DNA of 64,000 nt from Lentimicrobium sp. (GTDB lineage Bacteria > Bacteroidota > Bacteroidia > Bacteroidales > Lentimicrobiaceae): assembly GCA_023957275.1 (NCBI GenBank), contig JAMLHF010000008.1, positions 18,410 to 82,409 on the forward strand, written 5' to 3'. The notes below the pieces were generated by a model that saw only the letters and a program-made list of their open reading frames with translations, ran no database searches and was not told the origin of the DNA. The translations under genes and the position numbers were made by a program. Shown here piece after piece: positions 54,308 through 64,000 of the stretch (positions are counted from its first letter, which is position 1; every line of letters begins with the position of its first letter).

Positions 54308-57300
54308 CTACCTCACAATAAGTTTATAACTAAACTGTCGGGAGTCACTGATTATGCTGGCTACATAAATTCCTGACGGGATATTCAGGTTCAGGAAGTA
54401 ATGATTGCTGCCCTGCAGCTGACCGCTGTAAACCTGCTGACCCTGAAGGTTGTAAAGCATCAGGCTGAGTTTACCGGTATTTTCCGTCTGCACCCTGATT
54501 TCCTTGTTATAGGAGTATATGGCCAGGCCGCTGTTTTCCGGCCGGTCAATCCCGATGGAAATCAGGTCAAGGAGCAGTACATTGTCAAGTCCGCCGGAAG
54601 GATTGCGTGTGTCGGTTTCTATCCAAACCCCTGAAGGAACTTCATAGGTATGTACAATGGTTCCGTCTTCACCGCTGCGGATTTCCACGCGCTGCACACC
54701 GGCATCGTTCACATTCGGTACAATTCCGCCCCATGATCCGTCAGATCCGGCTACCTCACTGATATAAAAAGGCGCATAAGAAGTGATGGAAGCAAAGTCC
54801 ACTTCGCTGGTTTCGATATGGGCTGCATAAAGCGGGCGGCCTGTGCCAGCGGTGTTGTCATAAAGCAATGCAAAATCCTTGGGGGTATCTTCACTGATGC
54901 CCATGATGGCCGTTCCATAAGTGGGATCAGCTTCAGTTCCGAACTGCAGCACGGTAGCATAATCGGCAGTGGTGAGGCGATGGGCAACATCGCTTCCACC
55001 GGCACCATCATTCAGCGAAATGCGCATGTAAATCTGGTTACCCGGCGTGAACCTCGCGTTACCGGTCGGCTCTGCGATAAACCATCCGGTGAAGGCTCCG
55101 GTAGCATCGGTGGTAAATTCGCCGTACTCACCCGGATTTGCCAGGGAGGTGCTGGTGGTGCGCGAATAGGTTCCGTCAGCGGCGATAAAGATGCAGTTGC
55201 CCGCACCATCGGCCGTTGGCAGGTCCGATTCAAGCACAACCTTGTTGAAATACCTGTAAGTTGCTTCAGGCGTCAGGTTTTCGAGGGTAGCCCAAAATGC
55301 ATAAGGTACACGGGTATTGTTGGACCCGTTGATTCCCTGAACAAACTGCGGCAGGATCACACCCGAAATTCCCGGCTGCACGGCGGCGGTAACACTGCCG
55401 TTGCAGGTGACCACTTTATCTGCTGCGCCTCCGCCGGCGTTAAGAATGGTTTGTCCGCTGTAATCGCCGGCGGGGAGTCCGGCCACCAGGCGAACGGAAA
55501 CGGTTACCGGCTGGCCGGTAATCACGCCTTCGGCAAACGGAAATTCCAGGGACGCAGTAAAGTTTACTCCATCCGCTGACAGTTCATAATCTTCAGGTGC
55601 AGAAACCACAATATTTCCGCTGCCTTCAAGATCGGTTCCGCTAAGCAGATAAGTTTGAACCTCTGACGGTCCGCTGCCTTCCACATAATTAAATCCGCTG
55701 AGTGTAGCAGGAGAAACGGTCAGCAGAGGATCACCTGAGGGCAATAGATCAATTACAAGAATATCAACTTCTCCTCCGAAGGGATTCCGGGTATCGTAGA
55801 TTCCCCATACACCATTTTCGGAAGTATGCACGGCCACCAGGCTTCCGTCGGCATTGCTGCGTTCTTCAATCCGGCGAATACCATCGGGAAGCAGGTTGGG
55901 AACGATACCGCCCCAGGAGCCGTTGACTCCCTGTACCTGTCCGGTGTAAAATCCAACATAAGTACCCGCAGCAGCAAAATCGACGCCGGTAGTTTCAATA
56001 CTGCTTCCGTAAACAGGCCTTCCGGTACCGGCCATGTTATCATATAGATAAACAAGATTACCCGCTGCAGCTTCGGAGATTCCCCGGATTCCGGTTCCCA
56101 TCTCAGGCAGATTCTGATTTCCGAAATTGATTACGGTTGCAGCTTCCGCAGATGTAACCCGGTTCACCACAGATGTCCCTTCATTACCATCATTCAGCAT
56201 AATCCGCATGAAAAGCTGATTACCCGGGGTAAACCTGGCGTTACCGCTGGGTTCGATCATAAACCATCCTGTGTATTCTCCGTTCGCATCCGTTGTAAAC
56301 TCTCCATATTCTCCGGGATTCCCAAGATTGGTAGATGTGGTTCGCAAGAAACTGCCATCGGAATTGACAAAAATAGTATTCCCTGCCCCATTGCTTGTCG
56401 GCGAATCAGTACCAAGAACTATCTTATTAAAATAGCGATAGGTGGTATTTGGGTATAAATTACTGATGGTAGCACTAAATGCATAAGGAACCCGCTGCGA
56501 ATTCGTTCCATTGATTCCCTGAATATATGCAGGTATTGTAGCTACGCTGAAATAAGGAACCAGATCGGTAACCGTACCATTGCAGGTCACGTTTGCAGCA
56601 GCGGCACCCCCTCCTGAATGTACAATCACCTCATTGTTGTAATTTCCTATTGCAAGATCAGCTTTAAGCCTCACGGAGACGGTAACAGGCTGTCCGGTGA
56701 CGACCCCTCCCGCAAACGGGAATTCAAGCATCGAAACGAAGTCACTGCCATTGGATGAAATTTCATAGTTTTCAGGTGCAGTGACAACAATATTGCCGCT
56801 TCCGGCCAGATTTTCTCCGGTAAGCTCATAGGTTTGAGCAGATGAAGGCCCGTTGCCAATCTCATAGGTAAATCCGCTGAGGGTGGCAGGTGTCGCTGTG
56901 ATCACAGGTAAATCTCCTGGCATTACCGAGACATTATCGACCTGCCAGAGGCGATAGAACCCTGCATTATAATGGTATTTGAAAGCAATATAAACATTCG
57001 ATCCCATTATGGAAGAAAGATCAATAGCTCCTGAAGGTGTCCAAACCTGCTCCTCAGCCGGATAATTAAAGGTAAGTTCATTCCAGGTTGATGAAGTGGG
57101 GTCTCCAACACCCGGATAATCTGTAGAATACAACACCTTGAAATAATTATCCGCATCATCGCTGCCATAACGCATCCAACTTTCAAATGAAAGGTTGCAA
57201 TTGAAGTTTTCATTCAGATTGATTCCTGGAAGAATAAGCCAATCTTCTTCAAGCACGCCGGTGTTGAAACCGTTCATATAGGCATATTCTCCGGATGTAC

Positions 57301-58480
57301 TGTGTTTCCAGAACTGTGAGGGCCCTGCAACACTTTTTGTATAACAAAGTCCGAAACCTGATGAAAAATCTTCAGTATAGGGCAATGTAGTTGTGGCGGA
57401 CGCTTCCACATTACCATTGCATATGACGACAGCATTAGTCGCACCACCGCCCGCATTGATAATCTGTTCACCGGTGTAGGTTCCGCCGTTTAATCCGGCC
57501 TTTAACCTTACATAAACAGGCACGGCACTGAGGGCGCCTGCAGAATACGGCACATTAAGAACGGACTGTGAAAAACTGATATCATCCAGGGAAATTTCAT
57601 AATTTGCCGGTGGGGTAATGGTAATATTCCCATTGGCCGGGGTAAGGTTAGAACCTGACAGATTATAGCTTTGCGATGCGGAAGGTCCGTTGTTAACAGT
57701 ATATGTAAATCCGGAAAGGGTTCCGGGTGATGCTGAGATCGCCGGATTGGTTCCTGAAGACGGCGCAACCGCTTCTGCCCATGTTGTGGCAACCCTGATG
57801 CCATCAACGATTATACGTTGAGAAGCATTATATTGTCGGAGGGCAATGGATCCGACATTGGAAAAGTTGGCAGTTTCTGTTACAGTCGCATCGGGAACCG
57901 GAGGTTCTGTTGCCGGATATGTATTAAAAATATAAAAACTTGAAGTTTTAGTAGCTATTTCAAGTTTCATTACAATCAATGCAGGAACACCCGGAGTGAT
58001 AGGAAGGAAAGTAGCCGGAGGAGTATTCCCGAGGCCAAGGCCAATTCCATCACCTGCAGCGTTTATATATATCCTTGTAAAAAATGTTGTACCTATTGTA
58101 CTCTGACCAAAATGAAGAAAATAGCCGGCTGAATTAGGCCCCTGAGTTTGCACAACAGCTGCTGCATAAATAACCCCCGTAGTCTGTTCGGGAAAAGTCC
58201 TGTGTACATCCTCTCCGGTATTATCCAGATTTGCCCCACCGCCGATCCCTGATCCGGCATATCCGTCAAAAATCAATCCATTAGTAACATCGATTGACTG
58301 ACTTCCACCACTACTATGTGCGGTCCAGCCATTATCCGTCAGAAGTGCACCGATTGAGTAATCAAAATCCTCAATCAAAAGCGGTTGAGCGGTTGAAATA
58401 ATTGTCATCAGCGAAATGACTGTTGCCAGAATAAGCCTTGGTAACATTGCTCTTCCGGACTGTAAGTTCTGATTTTTCAT
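54308..58480 (-). CDS. Giant T9SS-secreted multi-domain surface protein
   Basis: 1390 residues. Signal peptide (to about 32), N-terminal jelly-roll domain (about 35-235), three copies of an Ig-like domain opening with TPATLSGF or a variant (about 247-357, 526-637, 922-1031), a choice-of-anchor J domain (about 367-521), two copies of a 275-residue module (641-915 and 1034-1308), and a T9SS sorting domain (about 1320-1390; NLQGQQVYSG...IPSGIYVASI). Module hallmarks: QGINGxN.RVPYAF, GEFTTDA...GWF..EP.GNARFTPGNQ, GSWGGIVPN, DTRNP.GG. Exported to the surface; partners unknown. No catalytic motif recognised. Confidence 0.9.
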   Translation of the reverse strand: MKNQNLQSGRAMLPRLILATVISLMTIISTAQPLLIEDFDYSIGALLTDNGWTAHSSGGSQSIDVTNGLIFDGYAGSGIGGGANLDNTGEDVHRTFPEQTTGVIYAAAVVQTQGPNSAGYFLHFGQSTIGTTFFTRIYINAAGDGIGLGLGNTPPATFLPITPGVPALIVMKLEIATKTSSFYIFNTYPATEPPVPDATVTETANFSNVGSIALRQYNASQRIIVDGIRVATTWAEAVAPSSGTNPAISASPGTLSGFTYTVNNGPSASQSYNLSGSNLTPANGNITITPPANYEISLDDISFSQSVLNVPYSAGALSAVPVYVRLKAGLNGGTYTGEQIINAGGGATNAVVICNGNVEASATTTLPYTEDFSSGFGLCYTKSVAGPSQFWKHSTSGEYAYMNGFNTGVLEEDWLILPGINLNENFNCNLSFESWMRYGSDDADNYFKVLYSTDYPGVGDPTSSTWNELTFNYPAEEQVWTPSGAIDLSSIMGSNVYIAFKYHYNAGFYRLWQVDNVSVMPGDLPVITATPATLSGFTYEIGNGPSSAQTYELTGENLAGSGNIVVTAPENYEISSNGSDFVSMLEFPFAGGVVTGQPVTVSVRLKADLAIGNYNNEVIVHSGGGAAAANVTCNGTVTDLVPYFSVATIPAYIQGINGTNSQRVPYAFSATISNLYPNTTYRYFNKIVLGTDSPTSNGAGNTIFVNSDGSFLRTTSTNLGNPGEYGEFTTDANGEYTGWFMIEPSGNARFTPGNQLFMRIMLNDGNEGTSVVNRVTSAEAATVINFGNQNLPEMGTGIRGISEAAAGNLVYLYDNMAGTGRPVYGSSIETTGVDFAAAGTYVGFYTGQVQGVNGSWGGIVPNLLPDGIRRIEERSNADGSLVAVHTSENGVWGIYDTRNPFGGEVDILVIDLLPSGDPLLTVSPATLSGFNYVEGSGPSEVQTYLLSGTDLEGSGNIVVSAPEDYELSADGVNFTASLEFPFAEGVITGQPVTVSVRLVAGLPAGDYSGQTILNAGGGAADKVVTCNGSVTAAVQPGISGVILPQFVQGINGSNNTRVPYAFWATLENLTPEATYRYFNKVVLESDLPTADGAGNCIFIAADGTYSRTTSTSLANPGEYGEFTTDATGAFTGWFIAEPTGNARFTPGNQIYMRISLNDGAGGSDVAHRLTTADYATVLQFGTEADPTYGTAIMGISEDTPKDFALLYDNTAGTGRPLYAAHIETSEVDFASITSYAPFYISEVAGSDGSWGGIVPNVNDAGVQRVEIRSGEDGTIVHTYEVPSGVWIETDTRNPSGGLDNVLLLDLISIGIDRPENSGLAIYSYNKEIRVQTENTGKLSLMLYNLQGQQVYSGQLQGSNHYFLNLNIPSGIYVASIISDSRQFSYKLIVR

Positions 58481-58596: not shown

Positions 58597-60696
58597 CTAT
58601 TTAAGAAGGACTTTGGTGCTGAATGAACCCTCGCGGCCAATAACCCTGACGATATAAATACCTGCGGGTAAGTCAAGGGAATAGGTGGCTTTGCTGCCGT
58701 TAATACTAAAACTGTGTACCTCCTGACCGTAGAGGTTGATGACCCGGATGCTTCCGTTCATCACCTGATCCAGCTGAATGCTGAGCTCTTTGCCATAGGT
58801 GAAAATTTTACCAAACTGGGTTTCAGGAGCGCCGATTCCAAGGGTGGTATTGATTACCAGCACATTATCAATGCCTCCGGCAGGATTTTTTGTATCCACA
58901 GTACCCCATACACCATCATCATCGGTATAATTGCTGACGATGGCCCCGTTCGTCAGGCTGCGTTCTTCAACCCGTTTTACCCCTTCCGTGTTGATATTCG
59001 GCACAATGCCGCCCCAGGCGCCATCGGTACCTGCCACATCATTGGCGTAAAATTCCGCATAGGTCCCTGCAATAAAACTTACCCCGGTGGTTTCTACCTG
59101 GGTGCCATACAGCGGGCGACCGGTTCCGGCGGTATTGTCGTAGATAAATACAAAATTTTTCGGAGTAAAATTGCTGATTCCGCGGATGGCTGTTCCGGTC
59201 GAGTCGGCAGCGCTGGTATAGAAACCCAGCGATTTAACACTTTCGGTAATGGTAAGACGGGTGGCTTCAGCAGTTCCGCCGGCACCGTCATTAAGCATAA
59301 TGCGCATAAATAATTCATTGCCCGGTTTAAACCTGGCATTGCCGGTAGGCTCGGTAATAAACCAGCCGCTGAAACTACCATTGGCATCTGTTGTAAACTC
59401 ACCATACTGACCCGGAGTTGTCATGGAAGCACTGGTAGTACGCACAAATTCCCCGGTAGAGGGATTCACGAAAATGCAATTTCCTGCTCCGTTGTAATCA
59501 GGACCATCGGATCCACTTACAATCTTATTGTAAAAACGGTAGGTTGAGGAAGGCAGAAGGTTCGAAAGTGTGGCATGATAGGCAAACGGCACCCTGTTGA
59601 TGTTGGATGGAGTGGCCCCTTCGATAAACTTTGGCAGAATGTAGGCCGAAATGGATGCAGGAGTGGAAGTTGAAACACTGCCGCTTAAAGGGATCTGAAG
59701 TTCGGGAGCGCCGCCGCCGGTAACGGTGAAAACACCTGAATAGCTACCGGCCGGCAATCCGGCTTTCAAACGGATACGTACAGGAACATCCCCGGTACCG
59801 GGGAAACTTCCGTTCTCGTAAACCACATTGCCCGGATCGCTTATAAAATTAACGCCATCAACGGAATACTCATAATCAGCTGAAGGGGTCATTGTAACGG
59901 CACCTGATGCCGGGGTCAGGTTGAAGGCGTTCAGGGTGGTAATCTGCATTTCAGAAGGACCAGCACCTTCCAGGTAAGTAAATCCTGATAAGCTTGAAGG
60001 CGTTGCAGTAATCATCGGAGAGCTGCCTACCCCTTTGAACGTGACATTGTCGTAACGGAGGGTTCCGTTAGGACTGTAGGATGAGGTTGAGGTCGCGGCA
60101 CCATATTCAGAACCGTCAACAAATTCGGTTACAATTCTGACTCCAAATGCAGCATTGCCCTCAACGCCCGAAATACCTGAGAAATCAGCACTTCTCTGAT
60201 ACCAGGTATCGCCTGCGTCCGCAATAAAGCGTCCGTTATCAAAACCTTTATCTACTCCCGCGGCGGTATTGACGGCGTTACCTTCATTGGCTTCAAAGTC
60301 TTCCCAATCGGTTCCGTTCAGCGTATACTGAACCCTGAGCCTGTTGGCAGAAGTATTGCTGTGACGGCCATCCCAGCTAAGGGCTATGGCGCTGTAGCCG
60401 GAGGTAGAAACCAGAAACTCAACCCCTGCGGTACCTGATCCGGTACCCTGCGCGGGATAAGCAGCTGAATTCCAGGCCCGCCCGCCGGTACCTGTTCCGG
60501 TATACCCTGTTGCGAAGGTGGCTGTAGTTCCGCCAATCAGTGCGGCGGTTCCCGACCCGGTGCTGGGTGTAATCACATCGCCCTCAAAAGTCCACTGTGT
60601 AATGGTAACCTGGGCATTTGCCATTTCAGCGGTGAAACCAAAACCGGCAAACAGTAATAATGCCAGCATGAACATTCTCGTGTAATTTTTCTTCAT
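58597..60696 (-). CDS. T9SS-secreted surface protein sharing modules with the 1390-aa protein
   Basis: 699 residues. Signal peptide (to about 28, ending NAQ), N-terminal beta-rich domain (about 30-225), one Ig-like domain (TPSSLSGF, about 229-341), one copy of the 275-residue module (344-620) and a T9SS sorting domain (about 630-699; NLYGQEVHSF...LPAGIYIVRVIG). The module keeps all hallmarks of the two in the neighbouring protein, so the pair arose by duplication. No catalytic residues recognised. About 115 bp separate the two genes, with a terminator in between. Confidence 0.9.
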   Translation of the reverse strand: MKKNYTRMFMLALLLFAGFGFTAEMANAQVTITQWTFEGDVITPSTGSGTAALIGGTTATFATGYTGTGTGGRAWNSAAYPAQGTGSGTAGVEFLVSTSGYSAIALSWDGRHSNTSANRLRVQYTLNGTDWEDFEANEGNAVNTAAGVDKGFDNGRFIADAGDTWYQRSADFSGISGVEGNAAFGVRIVTEFVDGSEYGAATSTSSYSPNGTLRYDNVTFKGVGSSPMITATPSSLSGFTYLEGAGPSEMQITTLNAFNLTPASGAVTMTPSADYEYSVDGVNFISDPGNVVYENGSFPGTGDVPVRIRLKAGLPAGSYSGVFTVTGGGAPELQIPLSGSVSTSTPASISAYILPKFIEGATPSNINRVPFAYHATLSNLLPSSTYRFYNKIVSGSDGPDYNGAGNCIFVNPSTGEFVRTTSASMTTPGQYGEFTTDANGSFSGWFITEPTGNARFKPGNELFMRIMLNDGAGGTAEATRLTITESVKSLGFYTSAADSTGTAIRGISNFTPKNFVFIYDNTAGTGRPLYGTQVETTGVSFIAGTYAEFYANDVAGTDGAWGGIVPNINTEGVKRVEERSLTNGAIVSNYTDDDGVWGTVDTKNPAGGIDNVLVINTTLGIGAPETQFGKIFTYGKELSIQLDQVMNGSIRVINLYGQEVHSFSINGSKATYSLDLPAGIYIVRVIGREGSFSTKVLLK

Positions 60697-61346
60697 AAAA
60701 TATTGGATTAAATGGTTGAAACTTCAGATGTTTATAGGGCAGGAGGGAATAATCTTCCCGGATTTCCAATTTACAAATTTAGTGGAATTTTGGATTCACC
60801 ATGTTAACAAATCCTAAAGATTTGCCGCTGTCTGATTAAATATTCTCCCCGTTCAACCGAAGCACTGATATATTACTCAAAATCTATAAATTAGGCTGAA
60901 ACAATTAAACATATTATCACTGCAGGCATGAACGCAGCGGGCATTTTTGCCGGGTTAAGGCTTAACTTTAAAGTTCAGTCTGATCCATACAAACAAAATG
61001 CCCGGAAAATATTTTTCAACCTCTTTTTGTGAAAATTCACTTCCAAAATCAGCCAAGATTCAGGCTAATTATCCAACACCCATCCGGATATGGCAGAACC
61101 TCAGCCAGGTAATCTCGATAAAAAAGGAAATAATTAACCAAACAATATCTCTACATCGAATGAAATAATAATTAATTAATCTAATACCAACCTCTACATA
61201 TTATAATTTATACTACTGTCTATTAATTTCTTAAAATATTTACTTTCCTCTACATCAAAGATTGACTGTAAAAATAAGTACACAACAATTTACATTTAAA
61301 ATTCACAGGATTTCTTAGCTTTGATTGGTCTTTAAACGGATTTTTT
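60697..61346. other. Divergent intergenic region between T9SS gene and phosphate locus
   Basis: About 650 bp, AT-rich, no gene found. Candidate -7 boxes: TAAATTTG on the minus strand at 60781-60774 for the T9SS gene, and TAGCTTTG on the plus strand at 61316-61323, 24 bp before the DUF47 gene. A long-range inverted repeat, CGGGCATTTT (60939-60948) with AAAATGCCCG (60996-61005), may form a hairpin; meaning unknown. No Pho-box-like repeat was identified. Confidence 0.5.
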
Positions 61347-61994
61347 ATGTTTCTGTTCAAACATGCCGCAAAATCCATTGAACTGATAGATAACTTCCTG
61401 AATATTATTGATCAGGGGGCAATTCTATTCAAAGAGGGGGTCAGAAATTACCTCTACGGCAACAGGGAAAATTTTCTGAGCAACCTGCAAACGCTCTCAT
61501 CACTTGAAACTGAGGCGGATATCATCAAGCGGAAAACGGAAAACCTGCTTTATACGCAATCTCTTATGCCGCAGCTGAGGGGCGATATCCTGAAACTGCT
61601 CGAAGAGCTTGATAATATTATTGACCTTGCCAAGACGAACCTGTTTCAGTTTGATGTCGAGATTCCGTTTATTCCGGCCGAATTAAACCAGGAGTTGGTA
61701 AAACTTACCGAATTATCGGTTTCTGCCATAGAGTCGGTGATACCGGCGGCAAGGGCATATTTCAAAGATCCTGAATCAGTCAAAGAAAAACTGCACAGGG
61801 TATATTTATATGAGAAAGAGGCTGACAAGCTGGCTGATGCAATCAAACGCAGGGTTTTTCATGAGATGCCCAACCTAAAGCTCAGCGAAAAATTTCATCT
61901 GAGGTATTTTACCTTACATATAGAAATACTGTCGGATGCTGCTGAGAAAACAGCCGATGTATTGTCGATTATGGCTATTAAACGTACCATTTAA
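61347..61994 (+). CDS. PhoU-like DUF47 protein
   Basis: 215 residues, all-helical; the layout matches DUF47 (Pit-accessory PhoU-like proteins), with FKHAAKSIELIDNF at the start and conserved Glu-rich helices (ETEADIIKRKTENLL, EKEADKLADAIKRR). Such proteins sit next to low-affinity phosphate transporters and are thought to regulate them. Stop and the PiT start are 14 bp apart. Confidence 0.92.
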   Translation: MFLFKHAAKSIELIDNFLNIIDQGAILFKEGVRNYLYGNRENFLSNLQTLSSLETEADIIKRKTENLLYTQSLMPQLRGDILKLLEELDNIIDLAKTNLFQFDVEIPFIPAELNQELVKLTELSVSAIESVIPAARAYFKDPESVKEKLHRVYLYEKEADKLADAIKRRVFHEMPNLKLSEKFHLRYFTLHIEILSDAAEKTADVLSIMAIKRTI

Positions 61995-62008: not shown

Positions 62009-63757
62009 ATGTTGCTGCTGATCTTTCTGTCGAGCGGGTTATTCCTTGGTTGGTCCCTTGGGGCCAATGATGCGGCGAATATTTTCGGGTCGGCGGTAGG
62101 ATCTAAAATGATCCGTTTCAGGAAGGCTGCCATCATTGCCAGTATTTTTGTGGTCCTGGGCGCAGTTTTTCAGGGCCGGGGCACGGCCGATACCCTCTCA
62201 AGCCTCGGAGCCGTTGACGCATTGGCCGGAGGATTCACCGTTTCGCTTTGCGCCGCGCTTACAGTGTTTTGGATGACCCGATATGCCATTCCGGTATCCA
62301 CCAGCCAGGCAATTGTCGGGGCGATCATCGGCTGGAGCATGTTTGCAGGTCTGCCCACCAATTATACCGTACTTACAAAGATTGTATCCACATGGGTATC
62401 AGGCCCCATCCTGGGAATGGCCTTTGCAGCAGGGCTTTTCCTGCTTCTGAGGGGATTTCTCCGGCGTACCAAAATCCATGTGATCAAACTTGACTCTTAT
62501 ATCCGGATCTCGCTGATCGTGGCAGGGGCTTTCGGAGCTTACAGTCTGGGGGCCAATAATATTGCCAATGTCATGGGGGTATTCGTCAATGCCGCCCCGG
62601 ACGTTTTTCTTAATTTCGGCCTTTTCACCCTCGACGGGGTTCAGTTGCTGTTTTTGCTGGGCGGGCTGGCCATTGCGCTCGGAATATTTACCTATAGCGA
62701 AAGGGTTATGCACACGGTTGGCAACGGCATCCTTTCGCTCAGTCCCGAGGCCGCCATTGTGGTTGTTTTATCGCAGGCCCTGGTGCTGTTTATCTTTTCG
62801 TCTTCCTCACTATCCGCTTTCCTGATGTCGATGGGGTTACCGGCAATTCCGCTGGTACCGGTTTCAAGCACACAGGTGGTGGTGGGTTCGGTGATCGGAA
62901 TCGGATTGGTGAAAGGAGCCCGCGAAATAAAATTAAAGGCACTTGGTGAAATTGCTGCCGGCTGGGTGGTTACCCCGCTGGCAGCCGGTTTCCTTACCTA
63001 TATCGCCCTTTTCTTTGTCCAGAATGTCTTTAAATTACCGGTGTTTTCAGGCAAAGTACAGGGTACCCCAATTCGGCCGGATACCATAACTGCCGTTGCT
63101 GAAAATGCAACGGAAATTGATCTCATCCTTCCGGCCATCCTGGCAATGGCTGCTTTGGCAATTATCATACTGATCTTCCTGGTATTCCGTCAGCAAAAAC
63201 TGCGGCTTAAAACTGAAAATGAGCTACTTCATCAGCAAAATAACTATTACCAGGCTCAAAAGACACTGAGCGGAATGGAAGTTACGGCTGTGCATCTTGA
63301 AAACAGCCTGCTGAGCCAGAAACTGGAAACCAAACGCCGTGAATATATCAACATCGCCCTGAATATCTCTTCACAGCGGGAGTTTCTGCAGTCTGTTGCC
63401 GCGAAAATCGATGAAATCAGGCTGGTCGGGGATCAGCAACAGCTACTGGAACAGCTGAATGACTTATCCCTTATGGTTAAACAGAAGATGAACTTCAGTG
63501 ATGAAACGGAAGAGTTATATGCGCAGATAGAATTGATCCACAAAGATTTCAGGCAGAAACTTGCCAATGCCTTTCCTGACCTGACAGAACAGGAAAAACG
63601 GCTGGCGGTACTGTTGCGCCTGAACTTTTCATCCAAGGAAATCGCTTCATTGATGGGTATATCTCCAAAAAGCGCTGAGATTGCCCGTTACCGCTTAAGG
63701 AAAAAACTGAATCTCGGAAAAGGCGAAAGCCTCACCTTTTTTATACAGAACCTTTAA
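62009..63757 (+). CDS. PiT phosphate transporter fused to C-terminal LuxR-like HTH
   Basis: 582 residues. Residues 1-394 are a PiT inorganic phosphate permease: signature repeats GANDAAN (18-24) and GANNIAN (181-187) and about 10-11 TM helices, the last at about 372-394. Beyond lies a cytoplasmic coiled coil (about 395-460), an alpha-helical linker, and a winged or LuxR-type HTH (about 523-582; LTEQEKRLAVLLRLNFSSKEIASLMGISPKSAEIARYRLRKKL). The HTH resembles tails of TPR-LuxR proteins in this phylum. It is one uninterrupted frame. Typical PiT proteins have no such tail, so a transporter-linked regulator is suggested (inference). Confidence 0.9.
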   Translation: MLLLIFLSSGLFLGWSLGANDAANIFGSAVGSKMIRFRKAAIIASIFVVLGAVFQGRGTADTLSSLGAVDALAGGFTVSLCAALTVFWMTRYAIPVSTSQAIVGAIIGWSMFAGLPTNYTVLTKIVSTWVSGPILGMAFAAGLFLLLRGFLRRTKIHVIKLDSYIRISLIVAGAFGAYSLGANNIANVMGVFVNAAPDVFLNFGLFTLDGVQLLFLLGGLAIALGIFTYSERVMHTVGNGILSLSPEAAIVVVLSQALVLFIFSSSSLSAFLMSMGLPAIPLVPVSSTQVVVGSVIGIGLVKGAREIKLKALGEIAAGWVVTPLAAGFLTYIALFFVQNVFKLPVFSGKVQGTPIRPDTITAVAENATEIDLILPAILAMAALAIIILIFLVFRQQKLRLKTENELLHQQNNYYQAQKTLSGMEVTAVHLENSLLSQKLETKRREYINIALNISSQREFLQSVAAKIDEIRLVGDQQQLLEQLNDLSLMVKQKMNFSDETEELYAQIELIHKDFRQKLANAFPDLTEQEKRLAVLLRLNFSSKEIASLMGISPKSAEIARYRLRKKLNLGKGESLTFFIQNL

Positions 63758-63768
63758 AAACCATAAGT

Positions 63769-64000
63769 ATGAGAAAAATGAATCATCCAAAATTAATGCT
63801 GTTACTGGCTGTTTTCTGGTTAACAGGTGGTTATGCCCTCGGACAGGAAACCGACACCACGGTGCGTTACAATCAGTATGGTGCCAGAGTGAACCGTACG
63901 CCGCTGAAAGCGGAGGAGAGGAACGGGATACTTGTGCTGGAAAGCAAGGACCAGAAGTACAAAATATGGTACGACGCCCGTGTACAGGTGGATGGCGCCA
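63769..64000 (+). CDS. Porin, N-terminal part (phosphate-selective porin O/P type), cut by window end
   Basis: 77 residues are visible from the ATG at 63769; a second ATG follows at 63778. Signal peptide (ending near ALGQ), then ...NRTPLKAEERNGILVLESKDQKYKIWYDARVQVDGA. The start of the first barrel strands after a KYKIWYDARVQVDGA type phrase matches the porin O/P group often found beside Pit genes. It is 11 bp after the transporter, so the three form a phosphate uptake operon. Confidence 0.6.
   Translation, partial: MRKMNHPKLMLLLAVFWLTGGYALGQETDTTVRYNQYGARVNRTPLKAEERNGILVLESKDQKYKIWYDARVQVDGA

Follow-up and report, generated by a model that had tools for sequence, protein, structure and literature searches.

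The SusR-like regulators of Bacteroides (SusR, BT3705) are membrane proteins with a sensor outside the cytoplasm and a DNA-binding domain inside it; SusR is reported to carry a periplasmic maltose sensor domain and is assigned two predicted sites with a spacer of 67 or 77 bp. CbrA of Pseudomonas is an SLC5 transporter-histidine kinase transceptor that signals through the kinase and the response regulator CbrB; nutrient transceptors, in which a transporter is coupled to a signalling output, are described in the same source as rare (PMC13022988). The sodium-dependent phosphate transporter TmPiT (6l85) and the other PiT/SLC20 proteins have the PF01384 domain and signature motifs.

Here we analyzed a 64-kb stretch of Lentimicrobium sp. 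DNA (hereafter, the window) that encodes a protein resembling all of these in part. Like the SusR-like regulators it is predicted to hold a DNA-binding domain on the inner side of the membrane, but its sensor is a multi-helix permease and its predicted sites are three, 43 and 56 bp apart. Like CbrA it combines transporter domain and signal output in a single chain, but the output here is a DNA-binding domain carried by the transporter. It has PF01384 in common with TmPiT, its best fold match, which is without the extra transmembrane (TM) helix or helix-turn-helix (HTH); of the two signature motifs of the fusion the first reads GANDAAN and the second GANNIAN, and two of its orthologues are motif-less. 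Neither the SusR-like regulators nor CbrA couple a permease directly to a DNA-binding domain, and we found no report of a PiT-HTH fusion in the open-licence PMC literature. We consider it likely that the protein is a membrane-bound one-component transcription factor with a PiT sensor, which binds an array of sites upstream of its own operon and controls that operon.

The PiT-HTH fusion protein

The fusion gene and its parts are as follows.

62009..63757, + strand: PiT-TM-coiled coil-HTH fusion protein, 582 aa (ORF, Pfam, orthologues, model, dN/dS)
62060..62995, + strand: PiT/PHO4 domain, residues 18-329 (PF01384, 209.9 bits against a cut-off of 33.7 in the Pfam scan; fold match 6l85)
63131..63184, + strand: extra TM helix, peak at residues 375-392 (hydropathy; absent from tail-less PiT orthologues)
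63194..63565, + strand: predicted long helices/coiled coil, residues 396-519 (AlphaFold model; dN/dS)
63575..63751, + strand: LuxR/GerE-type HTH, residues 523-581 (Pfam, orthologues, model, dN/dS)

A sequence-only reading of this DNA had proposed that a PiT transporter and a LuxR-like HTH share one reading frame, and the 582-residue ORF confirms this, with the motifs GANDAAN (residues 18-24) and GANNIAN (181-187) where that reading had placed them. The fusion recurs in 15 distinct near-full-length genes, the window included (L007 and G116:C65 being the same gene). In the AlphaFold model of the window protein (8-row alignment, mean pLDDT 72, pTM 0.56), for which Foldseek returned TmPiT as the top match (E 6.6e-14; sequence E 1.1e-22), long helices at residues 373-471 and 476-521 are followed by four short ones at 527-537, 542-549, 553-566 and 575-581, modelled with moderate confidence, which together form a four-helix HTH of the GerE/LuxR type. 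The LuxR-type response regulators StyR and VraR were matched by Foldseek with probability 1.00 and weak E values (0.11 and 0.24). In Pfam, the window protein scored 19.4 bits for GerE (22.0 for the tail alone; cut-off 23.5) and 25.1 bits for Sigma70_r4_2 (27.4 for the tail alone; cut-off 25.7), and three orthologues passed the GerE cut-off (L008, 39.8; L011, 32.2; L012, 26.4 bits). The proviso that homologues might reveal something other than an HTH fold is thus answered by the GerE matches in these orthologues, the modelled helices and the Foldseek matches.

The same reading had placed the last TM helix of the permease near residue 394. A very hydrophobic helix is indeed present, peaking at residues 375-392 after a variable linker and followed by K/R residues; it is, however, not a PiT helix but belongs with the graft, since L055-L058, PiT orthologues of the same order that have no tail, stop short of it. 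Tail-less orthologues in this order are 51-61% identical to the PiT part. PiT proteins generally have their C-terminal end outside the cytoplasm, and an extra helix makes topological sense if the PiT part ends there in the fusion too; the charges fit this predicted topology, with K/R residues preceding the last helix of the PiT part and following the extra TM. From the Pfam scan, hydropathy and orthologue comparison, the predicted topology puts sensor, TM and cytoplasmic HTH on a single chain with no kinase or receiver, so that a transporter domain and a signalling output are combined in one protein, as in a transceptor.

A search with the whole protein matched 130 of the 198 genomes of the window's order at E ≤ 1e-10, most of the matches listed covering only residues ~370-582. 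The window's own genome holds seven further tail relatives. Of seven relatives that were scanned, three carry TPR domains and two carry Reg_prop or Y_Y_Y domains; in the remaining two, short proteins of 206 and 212 aa, the HTH alone was recognised. The TPR and Reg_prop/Y_Y_Y proteins are homologous to the fusion tail across TM, coiled coil and HTH, while their N-terminal part is a TPR or beta-propeller region rather than a permease. Because its relatives are attached to TPR or Reg_prop/Y_Y_Y sensors, the grafted piece is a complete, exchangeable TM-coiled coil-HTH output module of Bacteroidota membrane-bound regulators, with the PiT permease occupying the place of the usual sensor.

Selection was assessed as dN/dS for one pair, the window protein and its orthologue L005, with values of 0.046 for the PiT part, 0.49 for linker plus TM, 0.047 for the coiled coil and 0.089 for the HTH; the low values for the PiT part, the coiled coil and the HTH indicate that, between these two sequences, all three parts, and hence the tail, are under purifying selection. 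Residues K554, S555, R560, Y561, R562 and L563 are identical in 15/15 fusion proteins, and the possibility, raised at the outset, of a tail devoid of DNA-contact residues finds no support in this invariant set. By the dN/dS comparison with L005, the fusion is one functional protein and not a spent read-through.

The operon and the probable signal

Two operon genes flank the fusion gene in the window.

61347..61994, + strand: PhoU_div (DUF47) protein of 215 aa, encoded by the operon's first gene (PF01865, 63.7 bits; cut-off 24.4)
63769..64000, + strand: start of a Porin_O_P gene, the next operon gene, truncated by the window/contig end (99% identity to the L005 porin)

The window's contig includes 231 bases of the porin gene and stops 243 bases past the fusion gene; the first 77 codons (63769-63999) provide the match to the L005 porin, which itself scores 134.1 bits for PF07396. 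Across the fusion loci, a PhoU_div gene lies directly 5' of the fusion gene in 15/15 and a Porin_O_P gene directly 3' in 14/15, the contig of L048 ending at that point. The full order is PhoU_div, PiT-HTH, porin, LTD-repeat protein, 213-residue protein, CYTH protein and DASS symporter. Where contigs reach beyond the porin, the 213-residue protein is found in 12 loci, the CYTH-domain protein in the same 12 and the DASS symporter in nine. On the other side of the operon, two large repeat proteins are encoded on the − strand (54308-58480 and 58597-60696) and face away from it; similar genes occupy the same place in L005 and L006, and for the second of them the relative in L005 carries a T9SS sorting tail.

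The 213-residue protein (L005:10174-10812; orthologue, for example, L011:8763-9407) has no Pfam match, is 86% conserved on average over seven rows, and was not found in a search of the rest of the window's 95%-complete genome. Its model (pLDDT 69) matched 26 PDB chains at E ≤ 0.001 with TM-scores of 0.35-0.52, and the titles of these chains are mostly thiamine triphosphatase, AtTTM3, Sulfolobus triphosphate tunnel metalloenzyme, CYTH-type putative adenylate cyclase and viral RNA triphosphatase. On the model, the protein resembles a triphosphate tunnel enzyme, and the gene content speaks for phosphate or polyphosphate handling across both membranes.

If the protein is an autoregulator with a PiT sensor, phosphate is probably its signal. 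A regulator of the same design could instead respond to sulfate, another oxyanion or polyphosphate status. Several features lean that way: the second motif is GANNIAN, which the aligned tail-less relatives have as well, and not GANDxAN; NCBIfam ranks a CysP-type sulfate-permease model above PitA, at 92.5 of 400 bits and hence far below the cut-off; and the operon includes a DASS symporter, a family with sulfate members. The PhoU_div protein, the porin of a phosphate-selective family and the CYTH and triphosphate-tunnel-like proteins encoded alongside argue against a different signal, which we regard as unlikely, if the most serious of the alternatives.

The promoter array

The sequence-only reading had also pointed to the gap at 60697-61346 as a place where the domain might bind DNA. 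Three same-strand boxes were found there, ahead of a promoter element.

61149..61156, + strand: box A, CTCTACAT (exact match; second-best matrix score on both strands of the 64-kb window)
61192..61199, + strand: box B, CTCTACAT, 43 bp downstream of A (matrix score ranked third in the window)
61248..61255, + strand: box C, CTCTACAT, 56 bp downstream of B (matrix score ranked first in the window)
61316..61323, + strand: candidate -7 promoter box TAGCTTTG, 68 bp after C (TAnnTTTG pattern; ATG at 61347)

The Bacteroidota -7 promoter consensus is TAnnTTTG, and on that basis we take TAGCTTTG at 61316 to be a candidate box of this kind; in 13/15 fusion loci the pattern lies between -25 and -42 relative to the start codon. 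Using a matrix derived from 29 boxes of 13 other loci, with the window and L005 left out, the window boxes score 15.1, 13.4 and 13.3 and rank first to third, the next site reaching 12.2. Upstream of PhoU_div in the 15 fusion regions, CTMTACA occurs 21 times on the + strand versus twice on the − strand, against a mean of 0.94 and a maximum of 5 in 300 shuffled controls. Information in the matrix amounts to ~1.2-2.3 bits at most positions of the CxCTACA core and to 0.27 bits or less outside it, so the flanks are not conserved. Twelve loci show a best box spacing of 41-43 and 54-57 bp. As described for SusR-like regulators, the predicted sites are direct repeats with long spacers upstream of the putative target operon.

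We then scored each fusion promoter without its own sites, using matrix seeds and spacing ranges that were set after the arrays had been seen. The three-box score was at least 10.7 in 13/14 scorable fusion promoters and was equalled by at most 2/200 shuffles; several of these promoters combine two strong boxes with a weak third, and that of L012 has two strong boxes 11 bp apart. The exception was L011 (score 4.0, with 32/200 shuffles as good), which has two boxes 33 bp apart. The upstream region of L010 was too short to score and shows one box. In 15 comparison loci (14 tail-less loci plus L059, whose gene is cut by a contig end at 253 residues), three-box scores did not exceed 7.9, the best by shuffles being L070 (3/200), and no same-strand box above 9 bits was found. 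Ten of the 14 tail-less controls come from outside the class and are weaker controls than the same-order L055-L058, because the PhoU_div gene there often closely follows a symporter gene. L069 and L071, for which no clean PhoU_div ORF was called, and G186 were not part of the promoter set. The fusion loci share ancestry, and the array and the tail could have been co-inherited rather than functionally linked.

Beyond these promoters, a tight doublet occurs in the window's genome only at the PhoU_div-fusion operon and once inside an ORF, and control by the array therefore looks local to the operon. A loose doublet gave 23 matches in 18 genomes versus 15 for the reversed control, so that we do not claim a regulon beyond the operon. 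The strict triple was found in 13 of the 198 order genomes (reversed control, 4), among them G169, where it lies in simple-repeat DNA; the other 12 places are three fusion promoters (G000, G062, G146), three positions beside TPR-HTH genes (G103, G167, G020) and six elsewhere, and the strict triple misses 7/10 fusion genomes of the order. G169 itself contains dispersed CTCTACAAC-like simple-repeat arrays on many contigs, with 28 pattern matches (L113, L125-L141).

Arrays of this type also accompany some TPR-TM-CC-HTH genes. In G134 and in G592, to which L010 belongs, doublets with the same 43-44 bp step adjoin TPR-HTH genes, and 3'-end arrays of similar spacing were noted at L087 (G103:C6), L091 (G134:C3), L092, L118 (G167:C132) and L121 (G020:C96). 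Unlike at the PiT loci, they lie just past the 3' end of the regulator gene and face away from the reading direction of the next gene. Since regulators whose sensor differs and whose HTH is related have similar arrays nearby, the array probably goes with the HTH and not with phosphate genes as such, and the TPR-HTH-adjacent CTCTACA arrays are possibly the DNA code of a wider regulator family.

The same distribution bears on the possibility that the HTH is real but has its targets elsewhere, the CTCTACA array being bound in trans by another TM-CC-HTH regulator or by a phosphate-gene factor. The seven additional tail relatives in the window's genome supply candidates for such a factor, and the arrays beside TPR-HTH genes in other genomes also fit it. 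Six of the seven paralogues, however, have no array pair beside them and one (L081) has a weak pair; the tight doublet in the window's genome is confined as described; and the comparison loci, 14 of them tail-less, are without a strong same-strand box upstream. We judge binding in trans to be rather improbable, and prefer the reading in which the fusion protein binds the array of its own operon.

Distribution, degenerate lineages and the proposed circuit

A tail of this kind might have been a general PiT feature, a reservation attached to the original proposal. Order-wide and phylum-wide genome searches rule this out: the full fusion is present in 10 of the 198 order genomes, and tail-less orthologues exist in the same order. 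Of 395 genomes from across the phylum, 13 had a match to the fusion profile at E ≤ 1e-60, and none of these matches except the window's own extends over the tail; in nine of the other 12 the ORF (~490-515 aa) has a different C-terminal extension, without a match to the tail profile. The PiT proteins L069 and L071-L078 from other Bacteroidota are extended at the C terminus by an unrelated stretch of roughly 130-160 residues; in several of them the first motif reads GANH or GANN instead of GAND. A genome scan with the tail found nine loci, eight in Bacteroidales or other Bacteroidota assemblies and one in Cupriavidus, matching 45 HTH residues only; a search of a plasmid collection gave no near match. 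The two other same-genus genomes of the 198-genome set (G005 and G124) have no full-length fusion match, and the distribution is therefore patchy.

One of the ten order genomes, G075, carries a fusion gene with an internal TAA stop (L060:5990-7807), which may be decayed or reflect a sequencing error, and what looked like a second copy in G146 (C98) turned out to be a detached continuation of that genome's own fusion gene, with 98% identity across 114 residues. In the tail tree, from which L060 was left out, 14/16 tails fall in one clade (support 100/100), with L053 and L054 outside; the PiT tree left out L060, for its internal stop, and L009, which is tail only. When separate origins were tested with these trees, a single fusion origin was not rejected (p 0.22 for tails, 0.35 for PiT).

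Two lineages have lost the permease signature. In L011:4870-6525 and L012:4942-6549, both PiT motifs are gone and PF01384 is unmatched (E up to 0.5), and the tail, array region and operon are retained. In a profile comparison the region can still be aligned with PiT, across 307 columns (probability 98.7, E 2.4e-16). Identity to the window protein is 21% (L011) and 23% (L012) in the PiT part and 68% and 65% in the HTH, and the PiT branches are saturated (length 10) in the trees, where the tail branches measure ~0.8-0.9. L008 is intermediate, with the motif GAKDAPN. In 295 genomes of the class, a degenerate-type query matched only the window's own genome at E ≤ 1e-30. An unfused second PiT is present in 15/15 fusion genomes, those of L011 and L012 included. 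A tail that served only the transporter would not be expected to survive the loss of the transport motifs, as it has in L011 and L012, and we think it likely, from sequence comparison, that in these two proteins a transporter has turned receptor.

The same observation counts against a non-regulatory function, in which the tail would dimerise or anchor the protein and steer the transporter, the HTH fold serving protein contacts or being a relic. That the window HTH scores below the GerE cut-off and that the PiT motifs are intact in most fusions would be compatible with such a tail; the invariant K554, S555, R560, Y561 and R562, the dN/dS of the HTH, its far better preservation than the PiT part in L011 and L012, and the presence of the promoter array argue against it, and we hold this explanation to be very unlikely. 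An artefact, whether a frameshift, a chimeric contig or a misassembly joining two genes, might be suspected from the contig end so close behind the fusion gene, and is ruled out, as 15 distinct genes taken from separate assemblies all have this uninterrupted arrangement.

A regulatory role for the fusion protein rests on its conservation, its operon and the association of the array with tail-bearing loci. The proposal of a membrane-held one-component regulator has gained support from the HTH fold, the restricted occurrence of the tail, the invariant residues and the upstream array; its further suggestion, that the HTH is under the control of phosphate flux or of the PhoU-like neighbour, may apply as well. 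From these data we infer that the HTH binds the array, and as more than one subunit. The PiT domain would bind phosphate and, in most lineages, probably still carry it; the chain would cross the membrane once more after the PiT part and present the coiled coil and LuxR-type HTH in the cytoplasm. Several subunits, possibly a dimer or a larger assembly, would grip the three CTCTACA boxes upstream of PhoU_div, and the bound HTH would determine the activity of the -7 promoter from which the whole operon would be transcribed. The conformational state of the PiT part, possibly together with a PhoU_div partner, would set HTH activity, and activation under phosphate shortage appears the likelier sign of control. 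We give about even chances to the most specific form of this mechanism, in which the permease is the transcription factor of its own operon, its cycle is relayed via TM and coiled coil to the HTH on three boxes, the promoter is tethered at the transporter, and in L011 and L012 the permease has become a pure receptor.

A transporter joined directly to a DNA-binding head would be the shortest possible nutrient-to-gene circuit, and would mean that the Bacteroidota TM-CC-HTH output module accepts a permease as sensor. The CTCTACA boxes at steps of ~43 and 56 bp offer a candidate DNA code for part of a large, mostly unassigned regulator family. With lineages preserved in which the transporter part seems to be a receptor only, the family, if this reading is true, would make visible a path from transporter through transceptor to receptor.
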